Source: Tetramitus jugosus (lineage: Eukaryota > Heterolobosea > Eutetramitea > Acrasida > Vahlkampfiidae). Taken from it: a stretch of 64,000 nucleotides of DNA. The stretch spans positions 186,001 to 250,000 of the forward strand of contig OW569354.1 in assembly GCA_937625935.1 (NCBI GenBank), in the 5' to 3' direction. Positions 113 to 54,424 of this stretch are shown one piece after another. The translations under genes were made by a program, and so were the position numbers. Numbering within the stretch: the stretch's first letter is position 1; each line of letters begins with the position of its first letter. The notes under the pieces were generated by a model, which worked only from the letters and a program-made list of their open reading frames with translations, was not told the origin of the DNA and made no database searches.

Positions 113-2464
113 ATGAACGATCACGACAGCGACAACGACGACATGATGATTGAGGAGGACATTGACAATAATGACATTGATCCCTCAACAATGTATCAGG
201 TCATCCCACAAGAGATTCAATTCATCATCTTCACCTATCTGCCCGCATTGCCATAGTATGTACTTTTTTGTATGCAAAATCTCTGTGAAGAGATGATCAC
301 TGACTCTTGACTCACACATATCTTTATCCTCAACCACTGTAGCTACTTTTCTCTCAAGTCACTCAACAAGTACTTTGCCTCTCAGTTCTCCAGTGATGAG
401 ATGACATGGTCAGAAATCAATTGCCTCAATCTGTCTCCCTATAATCGATATGAAAAATACATTTTTCAGTCACCAGCCAGAAGAATCATTGACTCTCACT
501 TTGTTGACAAGTGCAAACCTGAAATGATTCAAAAGCTTGTCTTGTCTAGTTTATACAGGCCATACGCTTCACATCTAATCAAGATGCTTCCCAATCTCAA
601 AGAACTGACATATCCGTCTGATTTCTTGCCACAGGTTCAATGGAGATATCGTCTTCCAGTGTTGGACTCCACCTTTTCATCAGAGTTAAAATTAATGGGG
701 TCCGTTTATTCTCATGATCAAATCGAAACGTTGAATGTGTTTTTGCAAGTGCCCGTCGGTTTGAGAAGATGTCAAATGCGATCGAGAGATGCAATGTATG
801 GAGCTGTGCGTCCTGATGATGGTGATAATGATAACGAAGAGAACAATGACAATAAGAAGAGCAAAGAAGATGAAGAAGCACAGCGATGCGAGAGACTCAA
901 GTTGATAAGTACAATAGTGGATGCGTTGAGATCTTTTCCAAAATTGAAGCGATTAAACGTGTACAATACGACTGTCAGTGATGCAGATGTTGCAAAGTCA
1001 TTGAGACAAGTTCAGTATTGGATGAGAAAAAAAAATGAAATTCTTGACAAGATACAGTCACAGGAATTTACAGAAGCGAGACGCTTGGTAGGAACTGTTG
1101 CAGATTACAATCGATTGTGCTTGCATCCAACTGCCATGAGTGAGGATTTTGAACTCAATGTATACTCTTGTCTACGTCAACAAAACAAGACTCTGGCTTT
1201 TGATGACTTGATTCGATGTGGTTTGTCACCAAGCACTTTTGTACAAAACAATCAGAGAAGCTACTTGTTCATGCTGTTGCACTATGGTAACTGGGCAAGA
1301 AGAAAGGCACCGTTGGAAGAGTTGTACAAGAAACATCCCACTGAATTCTTCTCTTGGTTCCGACCATCGGATTGGAGTCTCCTTCTATCGGGAGAGACAT
1401 GTGAAGCCACGAATTTTATCTCCTTCTTCCTTCCAAAATTTACCAAGAGTGAATTCATGCATGTTGTTTCACCTCTCATTTTGTCAGATGTTGGAGACAA
1501 TGCCTATGTAGTGATACAAAAGTTTCCAGAGTATGGATTCGACTTCAAATCTGTTCCCAACTTGCTCAAGACTGTCGAAAAGGCTCCTAGGTTGTATCAA
1601 TACTTTTGTGAACAGGGTTGCTCATTGCAAGAAGAGGCAATTGTCCCTCAGGACTACCTCAAACAATTAGTGCAGCCATGTGTTCTCCATAAGGTGTTGG
1701 AGGAGAGCGTGTCAAACGGGATCGATCTTGCCAATTCCAAAGAGTTCAAGGATCACATCTTCAATACTATTAGTGTAGGTGATGAGCAGTTTGCGCTCAT
1801 GGCTTTGGACAAAATTGGAGTTGAGAGTGTACAAACTCATCGAGATAACCACGGTGATACGTACTTGCACGCAGCATTGGCATGGACTCGCTTAGAACTA
1901 GCAAGATCCATTATTCGCAGATATGGAATTAAGGATATCAATATGATGAATAATAGCAACGAGACTGTTCTGCACATTGCCTGCAGATCCATGAAATGTC
2001 TTCCTAACATGATAGAGTTGTTGCTTGGTGTTCCAGGAGTCAAAACCTATATCAAAAACAAGGGCAATGAATATGCCTACGATATCATGGTGAGAACTAT
2101 GACATCTAGGTATTATCCTCTCTCGTTGTATGCAAATATTTTGAAGCGATTAGAACCAAAGGAAGCAATGGAAGTTGACAAAATACTTGTTGAGGCCAGC
2201 AAGATTCAAAACGACACTGACCAGGCTTATCCTGCTCCAAGGAAAAGAAGGAGGAAATCGGAAGTTGTCAGTTGCTATCAAAGAGCAAAGAGAGCAAAGG
2301 ATACAACTGAGTCGAATGAAGCTGGCAATGAAACTGGTAATGAAGCTGTCAATGAACCAATCGAACCAACAGAGACAGTCTGCCAAATCACTGGTCGCCG
2401 AACTCAGAGGAACTCAATGTCCCTTCGAACAAACACTAAAAGATTTAGCTCATATGCTCAATAA
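113..2464 (+). CDS. F-box protein with ankyrin-like repeats, one intron
   Basis: Two exons, 113..255 and 343..2464, joined across an 87-nt intron with a GTATGT donor and a TGTAG acceptor; the join keeps frame and completes an F-box. After an acidic Asp/Glu/Asn N-terminus, residues about 28-75 read IPQEIQFIIFTYLP...YYFSLKSLNKYF, the usual F-box pattern for binding Skp1 in an SCF ubiquitin ligase. The middle is a long helical region with a charged insert (about 690-860 nt). Near residues 500-580 are two ankyrin-like repeats (GDTYLHAALAW and NETVLHIACRS), probably the substrate-binding part. The C-terminus has a basic, nuclear-signal-like patch (PRKRRRK) and a Glu/Asn/Thr repeat (EAGNETGNEAVNE). 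The role as a ubiquitin-ligase substrate receptor is inferred; the substrate is unknown. Confidence 0.75.
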
Positions 2465-52335: not shown

Positions 52336-53664
52336 TTATAAACTGTTTTGAAGATAAAGTGGATTGACTGAACCCTCCTGTATCAGCGCAATGAGTGTCT
52401 CTTCTGTTGTGTACGTGTGATTCTGTCTCAGTTTCTCCATGTCAGAGTTTGGCGTAATGTACAAGTACTCGTAAATGGTATGATTGCCCAGGTATCCGTT
52501 AATACAGTGTGGACAAGTCTTACCACTGTCCTTTGATTTGTTATTGCCATCGGCTGACGATGATGATGAGTCATTGGGATCTGGTGGCATGCAAACAACG
52601 GGCAACACCTGCCTCCGATGACTCTTGTTAAATGAAACAATCCGATAAATGTTCAACAATTGAAGTGCTCGATTATCCGATTTTCCATACATGACCATTT
52701 GTAGTTTACAATGTGGGCAGAGCAAAGGGACTCTCTTCACTCCCAATATGCACTTGAATGCTCTAAATTGTGTCTTGAGATCAATGTTCATCGACCGTAA
52801 TCTCTCCAAGAGATCAATGGGAGAGCTGGCGTGACCTGTTGAAATCACAGACACACCAGACAGTGCAATCGATGTCGCTGTCTCAAAATCAATCTTGTTT
52901 CTCAACTCTCCAAAATAAATCATGTCGGGATCGTGTCTCAACAGTGCATTGGCAGTCTCTGCCAATGATCTCTGCTTGCCCTGAATCTCTTGAAACATGT
53001 CAATTTGACACACGTGGAACAGTCCATGCGTATTCAAATTGACCTCCACTGGATACTCTAATGAATAAATGGACATTGTGCTATTCTTGCTCAACTCACA
53101 CAGAATACCTCGAACAATGGTACTCTTTGGTGTGTGTGTGTGTGTACGCATAGAAAGTCAGACACATGCATGTGAAATGGAGACAAGAACAAAACTACAA
53201 ACCTTTCCGCTGCCCGTGGGCCCTACGATGCACACGTGACCACCACCTCCACCTCCACTTCCACCACTACCCGATCCAATATTGTGTTGAAACACTTGAG
53301 CAATATCGGGAGGATCACCCTTGGGTTGTTCCACAAGTGGTGATGTCGGAGTCACTGGAACTGTTTTGGAGTACACTTTTTCCATGACACGACTAAAGAG
53401 TGTGGCATGAGCAGTCGTGTTTGGATAACCAATGAGCCACTTGTTCTTCTTGAGCTGTTGTTCATTGAGTTGTTTGGCGTCTTGTTGTTTTTTGGTCTTC
53501 TTGTGACTGTTGTTGTGCATGACATTGGCAGTGCTGGTGGCTACTGTGTGTAAGTTGGGTGATATATGCTTCAACAAGACATTGATTCTATTTCTCCAAA
53601 TGGGATTGTCATTTGGTGAGGATGATAATGTTTCGTTCATGTGTTGATGATCATCTTGTTTCAT
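52336..53664 (-). CDS. GspE-type secretion ATPase, candidate mitochondrial T2SS motor
   Basis: Exon 1 complement(53203..53664) and exon 2 complement(52336..53124), with a 78-nt intron that splits the P-loop exactly between Lys154 and Ser155; the join makes GPTGSGKST. Product 416 residues. Motifs in order: Walker A at 148-156; an Asp-box region SLEYPVEVN (bacterial proteins have EDP; here the Asp is Tyr); Walker B DPDMIYFGELRN; a His box ISTGHASS (usual form STLHTN); then a paired-CxxC zinc motif, CPHC ... CPHCINGYLG with a downstream IYEYL, which is the GspE/PilB-type CM domain signature. The N1 and N2 domains that dock to GspL in bacteria are absent; the N-terminal 140 residues are polar and basic with a Gly-rich linker. 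A T2SS in mitochondria is known from Naegleria and jakobids, and this fits its GspE. The intron shows it is a true nuclear gene. Confidence 0.85.
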
Positions 53665-53998
53665 GATCTATAATCTCGAAAAGCTTTTGTGCTCAAAATC
53701 CAGAAAAATCAATCTCTCACTTTTTTTTCACCCACGATTGTTGTTGGTCAAACCACAAATATCCAACAATCTCATTCAGGAGACACTTTTATCAAGTTTG
53801 CAGAGTCGTGTCAATCGATAAGAGTAGACAAGCCTTGTCTCTTCCTTGTTTGCGATTGCGCTTTTGCATTTCAGCGACATCTCTGATTGCTCAATAAAAT
53901 TATTGAACGTTTCCTTGAAGTTGCGGTCAACTTGAGGAAACCAACAAAAATTTGAATTACACAAACAAAAAACAAAGTCATAACCACCTATATACATC

Positions 53999-54424
53999 AT
54001 GAAGCATAACCCACTCGTCTCATCCGATGCTGGCAAGTCCAGAAAGCGCCACTTCACCGCTCCATCTTCTGAGAGAAGAATCAGAATGAGCTCAACCCTT
54101 GACAAGAAGTTGAGAGAAAAGTTCAACGTTCGCGCTGTTCCAATCAGAAGCAAGGATGAAGTCGAAATCATCACTGGTAAGTTGAAGGGACAAAAGGGTG
54201 TTGTTAAGGCTGTCTACAGAAAGAAGTACAAGATCTTCATTGAGGGTGTCCAAAAGACCAAGAACAACGGAAAGCAACCATACGATGTTCCAGTCGAACC
54301 ATCCAACGTTAAGATTGTCAAGCTCCACATGGACAAGGATAGAAGATCCCTGTTGAAGAGAAAGGGTGATGCTAGATCTGCAATCAACGGTGCTGTCGCT
54401 TCTGGTGAAAAGCACGAAGAGTAA
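53999..54424 (+). CDS. RPL26: 60S ribosomal protein L26 (uL24)
   Basis: A 141-residue protein matching eukaryotic L26 throughout: KHNPLVSSDAGKSRKRHFTAPS, RIRMSSTLDKKLREKFNVR, then the KOW motif DEVEIITGKLKGQKGVVKAV, YRKKYKIFIEGVQ, and a basic tail. It binds 25-28S rRNA near the exit tunnel on the large cytosolic subunit. Codon use is strongly biased (AAG, GTT, GTC), as in highly expressed genes. No intron. Confidence 0.97.
   Translation: MKHNPLVSSDAGKSRKRHFTAPSSERRIRMSSTLDKKLREKFNVRAVPIRSKDEVEIITGKLKGQKGVVKAVYRKKYKIFIEGVQKTKNNGKQPYDVPVEPSNVKIVKLHMDKDRRSLLKRKGDARSAINGAVASGEKHEE

Follow-up and report, generated by a model that had tools for sequence, protein, structure and literature searches.

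A PTS2-like N-terminal motif on GspE and further core subunits of the putative mitochondrial type II secretion system of Tetramitus jugosus

How does a bacterial-type secretion ATPase come to be encoded among ordinary genes of a heterolobosean, and what could direct its product to the mitochondrion? These questions are raised by a gene in a 64,000-nucleotide stretch of the T. jugosus genome (contig OW569354.1, positions 186,001 to 250,000; in the following "the window"), which a first-pass annotation based on the letters alone had read as a probable GspE of a mitochondrial type II secretion system (miT2SS). Horvathova et al. (2021; PMC8134430) described such a system in heteroloboseans, jakobids, malawimonads and hemimastigotes. 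Our best explanation, to which we assign a probability of roughly 0.78, is a miT2SS GspE whose N-terminal helix would serve as a PTS2-type signal for a receptor of the Pex7 family.

The GspE gene extends from 53664 to 52336 on the reverse strand and encodes 416 amino acids and a stop codon once a 78-nt intron is removed. In detail, exon 1 (53203..53664, residues 1-154) ends in GPTGSGK and is followed by a phase-0 intron (53125..53202, GTTTGT...CCAAAG) and by exon 2 (52336..53124, residues 155-416 and the stop). The predicted intron splits the Walker A motif between K and S (GPTGSGK/ST), without splicing the frame runs into a stop within the intron, and only one of the 32 in-frame GT-AG pairs, 53202/53125, restores GSGKST. 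The same join is found in the public protein P0001 (418 aa, 99% identical to the window protein), whose sequence may go back to a cDNA or to gene prediction. Both the sole GSGKST join and the identical join in P0001 speak for the coordinates, the strand and the intron exactly in the P-loop that had been proposed before, and 53202..53125 is the likely splice of the gene. The GC content varies between 0.36 and 0.44 across the window and amounts to 0.415 at the GspE gene. Eukaryotic surroundings had been claimed as well, and the adjoining genes bear this out: according to Pfam they encode ribosomal protein L26 (RPL26; 53999..54424, forward strand, PF16906 E 4.1e-28), a TMEM62-like protein, DUF1264, RNase T2 and DAAF9_N, whereas two of the seven neighbours tested had no Pfam match at E 1e-5. 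As the divergent RPL26 gene lies only 334 bp from the GspE start, both genes may have a common promoter region in 53665-53998.

The protein matches the T2SSE family (PF00437) with an E-value of 1.1e-26, and its top two NCBIfam models are GspE, with scores far below the full-length cut-offs. The predicted C-terminal ATPase domain contains all parts that the first-pass annotation had listed, each of them apparently intact (all on the reverse strand): Walker A, whose first part GPTGSGK (53203..53223) is completed by ST at 53119-53124, Walker B with its Glu (PDMIYFGELR, 52900..52929), the His box (STGHASS, 52822..52842) and the two zinc-type Cys pairs CPHCK (52705..52719) and CPHCIN (52498..52515). 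The absence of the N1/N2 domains was seen as well, since a Pfam search of the protein gave no MshEN domain and the top matches by fold start at model residues 58-112, past N1E/N2E. The Asp box is degenerate (SLEYPVEV, 53041..53064), with the Tyr already noted for Asp at residue 178 and with Glu177 retained. Each of the 17 aligned eukaryotic GspE proteins (the window protein and 16 others) has Tyr, Ser or Phe at this position and keeps the adjacent Glu. Therefore, Tyr178 is no peculiarity of the window gene, and we dropped the idea that it marks a dead enzyme.

Regarding the family placement, a tree calculated by a quick method and containing long branches separated 18 eukaryotic GspE rows from 40 other GspE/PilB-type rows with an SH-aLRT support of 100. 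At this support of 100, the window protein is placed together with GspE of heteroloboseans, malawimonads and jakobids and not with bacteria; it sits among the heterolobosean rows, and its nearest relatives are one further protein and an Acrasis group. The closest solved sequences are GspE, and by sequence the protein is nearer to GspE than to PilT/PilB; by fold, GspE/EpsE tie with PilB as nearest. The eukaryotic clade and the closest solved sequences support the earlier proposal, and judged by such comparisons we regard the gene as almost certainly the GspE ATPase of the miT2SS. It extends the published family by one heterolobosean, a kind that was already known. With the miT2SS GspE of Naegleria, Acrasis, Willaertia, Malawimonas and Andalucia it has in common the restriction to the C-terminal domain, GPTGSGKSTIVR, E-[YSF]-PVEV for the Asp box, HDPDxxYFGELR, STGHA, the Cys pairs and a PTS2-like N-terminus (15 of 20 rows), whereas it comes from another species and its two Cys pairs are separated by a Ser/Asn-rich linker that is longer than in most of these rows. 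In comparison to bacterial GspE/EpsE (1p9r, 4ksr, 4pht), it lacks N1E/N2E and the Asp-box Asp and has extra residues past the Asp box and the N-terminal tag.

The first-pass annotation had also left open how a motor without N1/N2 docks. A docking proposal has in fact been published: the miT2SS GspE has no N domains, and it is accompanied by the separate proteins GspEN2A and GspEN2B, which would provide the N2 function, and by GspEL, an inactive paralogue (PMC8134430). In the T. jugosus genome (26.3 Mb, 56 contigs searched) we identified a GspEL paralogue (positions 1465..2274 of locus L002, contig C20 of assembly G000, reverse strand), which like the published one has no Walker A and a replaced catalytic Glu, and which bears the GspE-type tag RANTLLNHLSPN. 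Searches with PF05157 (N2E) across the genome gave no match, the published GspEN2A/B being divergent. The expected partners encoded elsewhere were found for GspF (L005) and GspG (L007), whereas for GspD there is only a weak candidate, a Gln-rich ORF whose C-terminal stretch is possibly that of a secretin and which may represent GspD or GspDL (1294..2292 of L004, contig C14 of G000, reverse strand). The PF00263 match for GspD has an E-value of 0.31 and the full ORF showed no secretin family in Pfam; with an E-value limit of 10 it matches seven PDB sequences, six of which are secretins (best 0.09). The best E-value with PF03958 for GspDN was 0.14 and not significant. A TIGR02517 (GspD) match with a best E of 0.036 was rejected as chance, because the translation of the gene in which it lies reads like a G-protein alpha subunit. 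No relatives of GspE or GspEL were found in viral contigs.

What the first-pass annotation had missed is a short motif near the N-terminus of GspE, RINVLLKHISPN (residues 26-37; 53554..53589, reverse strand), which was recovered by pattern and motif search. The other T. jugosus subunits carry related sequences, namely GspEL at residue 18, GspF at residue 18 (RLENLMRHIQPD) and GspG at residue 3 (RLRILANHIHPN), the starts of GspF and GspG being ATGs chosen within longer open frames. The motif can be written R-[LIVMA]-x-x-[LIV]-x-x-[HQ]-[LIV], with x-P after it in most cases, and is present in these four proteins and in most N-complete orthologues. Its form with Pro, R[LVIMA]xx[LIVMA]xx[HQ][LIVMAC]xP, occurs within the first 70 amino acids of 15/20 GspE rows (P0017 and P0020 having one common N-terminus), 12/18 GspF and 6/11 GspG rows and of all four T. 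jugosus proteins. In contrast, it was absent from all 197 windows of 70 aa taken further along in these proteins and, among the proteins P0021-P0120, which we took as bacterial, from all 100 N-termini and all 645 later windows; in shuffled N-termini its frequency was 0.0004-0.0008. Without the Pro, the counts are 15/20 for GspE, 15/18 for GspF and 8/11 for GspG against a higher background (5/100 N-termini of P0021-P0120, 14/197 later windows, 0.0086 of shuffles). Models that lack the motif and start in or near the conserved domain are P0007, P0013, P0014, P0015 and P0019 for GspE, P0131, P0133 and P0138 for GspF and P0143 for GspG; the GspG proteins P0147 and P0148 have N-termini that look complete and appear genuinely to be without the motif.

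The motif sequences number 41, of which 37 come from orthologue rows and four from T. jugosus. His occupies position 8 in 33 of them and Gln in the other eight, and Pro stands at position 11 in 36; the Arg at position 1, the [HQ] at position 8 and the hydrophobic positions are fixed by the pattern, whereas the Pro was not imposed. A Gibbs sampler without any preset pattern, applied to the first 80 residues of 52 rows, found the same 12-mer with 19.75 bits, compared to 10.65-11.21 bits in five shuffled sets (eight restarts for the real set, three per shuffle); shuffling also erases the homology of orthologues, which favours the real set, and the motif spans three unrelated protein families. In 164 kb of the genome, 130 ATG-initiated ORFs with a length of 100 aa or more were examined, and five of them contain the form with Pro, namely GspE, GspEL, GspF, GspG and one thiolase (L023). 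By a hypergeometric calculation done by hand, the chance that all four Gsp proteins are among these five is about 4e-7, a value that applies to a pattern drawn after seeing the sequences and to loci fetched by family. On this basis we hold it to be nearly certain that the predicted motif common to GspE, GspEL, GspF and GspG is real. It also appears to be new as far as the literature search reached: a PTS2-like tag on Gsp proteins is absent from the titles and abstract openings covered, and in the main texts the term PTS2 occurs once in PMC8134430 (with respect to Gcp1-3) and not in PMC10128026, PMC7050145 and PMC10952624.

The motif resembles the PTS2 signals of AGPS and thiolase, which are read by Pex7. 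It has the same R-[LIV]-x2-[LI]-x2-[HQ]-[LI] near the N-terminus, with the anchors of these signals including the tolerated exchange of His and Gln, and it differs from PTS2 cargo in sitting on mitochondrially located proteins and in the Pro at position 11, which is absent in AGPS. In the literature, PTS2 is given as [RK]-[LVI]-x5-[HQ]-[LAF], in which the middle residue is hydrophobic and which as a rule lies among the 40 N-terminal residues (PMC7710942), and the patterns for Discoba include M-x(0,20)-[RK]-[LVI]-x5-[HQ]-[ILAF] and R-[LI]-x2-[LI]-x2-[HQ]-L (PMC9512073). With no limit on the distance from the start, the core [RK][LVI]x5[HQ][ILAF] fits the first 70 residues of the T. jugosus GspE, GspF and GspG and not those of GspEL, which has Ala at position 2. 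Six of the 130 ORFs contain this core: besides GspE, GspF, GspG and the thiolase there are two more, one of which is the L004 ORF that may be a secretin, where the core sits at another position. The Discoba pattern requires the Arg at most 22 residues from the start (PMC9512073), whereas it is residue 26 in the T. jugosus GspE and lies further in for many orthologues; residue 26 is within the 40-residue range of PMC7710942. The stricter Petriv pattern matches none of the four T. jugosus Gsp proteins (orthologue rows: 7/20 GspE, 4/18 GspF, 3/11 GspG) and the Kunze pattern likewise none of the four; therefore, we do not file them as PTS2 cargo.

The T. jugosus AGPS, with an E-value of 5.9e-197 to peroxisomal ADHAP synthase, starts with RLQVLTNHL, and among 11 loci examined it is the only one with the relaxed motif. 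The motif is absent from L030, L031 and L036, a small control with N-termini judged intact, which we take from their families to be mitochondrial-type enzymes; the remaining seven of the 11 loci start inside an exon or have an N-terminus that does not allow a judgement. Among ten thiolase matches, six loci (L020-L025, L022 and L024 being two exons of one gene) were examined, and only L023 (G000, contig C4, 526485-527315, reverse strand) has a PTS2-like N-terminus, including the Pro (RLHILQQHLSP). It is of the FadI/trifunctional-beta type and comes nearer to FadI, with 331 bits, than to the mitochondrial trifunctional beta, with 296 bits; because both are close, it may be peroxisomal or mitochondrial.

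Pex7 itself is clear (L008, 44% to an approximate human PEX7 sequence), and among its solved-sequence matches the PTS2 receptor 3w15_A ranks second after a WD40 repeat protein. The Pex7 query gave 112 matches, from which L008 and 11 further loci (L009-L019) were examined. Ten of the latter look by eye like what are presumably general WD40 families and were rejected as Gcp1-3. The remaining one, L017 (G000, contig C14, 345557-346132, forward strand), is a stand-alone WD40 protein that is colinear with the T. jugosus Pex7 from residue 1 and aligns with it end to end at 22.6%; because its best solved sequences are CAF1/RBBP4, it stays a candidate for one of Gcp1-3. These belong to the miT2SS companions Gcp1-16, and Gcp1-3 are WD40 proteins which are closest to Pex7 and whose distribution matches that of the miT2SS (PMC8134430). 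From this kinship to the PTS2 receptor we infer a Pex7-type reader of the Gsp tag, for which the chances may be even or slightly less.

Taken as a mechanism, GspE would work as a ring-shaped ATPase within the mitochondrial matrix and, via GspF, power the assembly of a GspG pseudopilus, as expected from its family, with the missing N2 function supplied by GspEN2 proteins as published (PMC8134430; none found here). The N-terminal helix common to GspE, GspEL, GspF and GspG would act as a targeting signal of the PTS2 type: before import, a Pex7-family receptor, either the Pex7-related Gcp1-3 or Pex7, would recognise it in the cytosol and deliver all four proteins. More tentatively, and with odds somewhat below even, one may think of a diverted PTS2 route, in which Gcp1-3 read the tags and either hand the proteins to mitochondria or shuttle them between mitochondria and peroxisomes.

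The strongest competitor accepts the same GspE and regards the helix as a plain Arg-rich amphipathic presequence in which Pex7-type receptors are not involved. The helical model of P0001 agrees with this, with helix 23-36 (numbering +2) spanning the motif at the low confidence of a pLDDT of about 67, and the motif-bearing thiolase L023 has the mitochondrial trifunctional beta among its near relatives. Yeast and T. brucei, the hosts used for targeting studies, both possess PTS2 import. The published location also fits a presequence: GFP fusions of GspD/E/G1 in yeast are mitochondrial, antibodies place core Gsp proteins in mitochondria, proteomics of N. gruberi assigns five Gsp proteins to mitochondria and, as reported there, none of these to peroxisomes, and the first 160 residues of NgGspG1 carried a reporter into the T. 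brucei mitochondrion, whereas the N. gruberi proteome data assign GspEL to the peroxisomal cluster (PMC8134430). Predictors detect presequences in jakobid and malawimonad Gsp proteins; however, they fail on heterolobosean ones (PMC8134430). A presequence also sits poorly with the control enzymes, as the mitochondrial-type L030, L031 and L036 are without the motif and AGPS alone has it among the 11 loci. Furthermore, presequences do not normally retain Arg, [HQ] and Pro at constant spacing, and exactly this is seen across jakobids, malawimonads and heteroloboseans. We consider the presequence a doubtful, albeit serious, alternative to the PTS2-type signal.

It seems rather improbable that the helix is instead a docking tag in the matrix, through which GspE, GspEL, GspF and GspG would all attach with their N-termini to a common partner such as GspEN2A/B, in place of the lost N1E-GspL contact. 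A GspE without N1/N2 would suit such a role, and a bacterial-type topology would turn these N-termini to the matrix. However, the mass-spectrometry peptides of NgGspG all lie beyond the processing site (PMC8134430), so that the GspG tag is apparently removed on maturation and should act before it, which makes a role in targeting more plausible than one in permanent docking. In addition, the motif resembles a known targeting signal. We are aware of no docking motif that resembles the Gsp tag. Bacterial contamination or a PilT/PilB-type ATPase, suggested by the bacterial-type fold and by the equal fold Z of PilB, can practically be dismissed in view of the predicted intron, the divergent RPL26 neighbour, the single clade with eukaryotic GspE (support 100) and the first rank of GspE by sequence.

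The window gene adds one heterolobosean to the published distribution of the miT2SS, a candidate relic of the earliest mitochondrion that is not known to have a cargo and that is accompanied by Pex7-like proteins. A conserved PTS2-type tag on core subunits, if true, would supply a ligand for these companions, and a peroxisomal address system would have been reused for a mitochondrial machine. If the diverted PTS2 route is true as well, the published peroxisome link would have to do with the biogenesis of the miT2SS itself rather than, or as well as, with its cargo. Its origin would then lie in the ancestor shared by heteroloboseans, jakobids and malawimonads.
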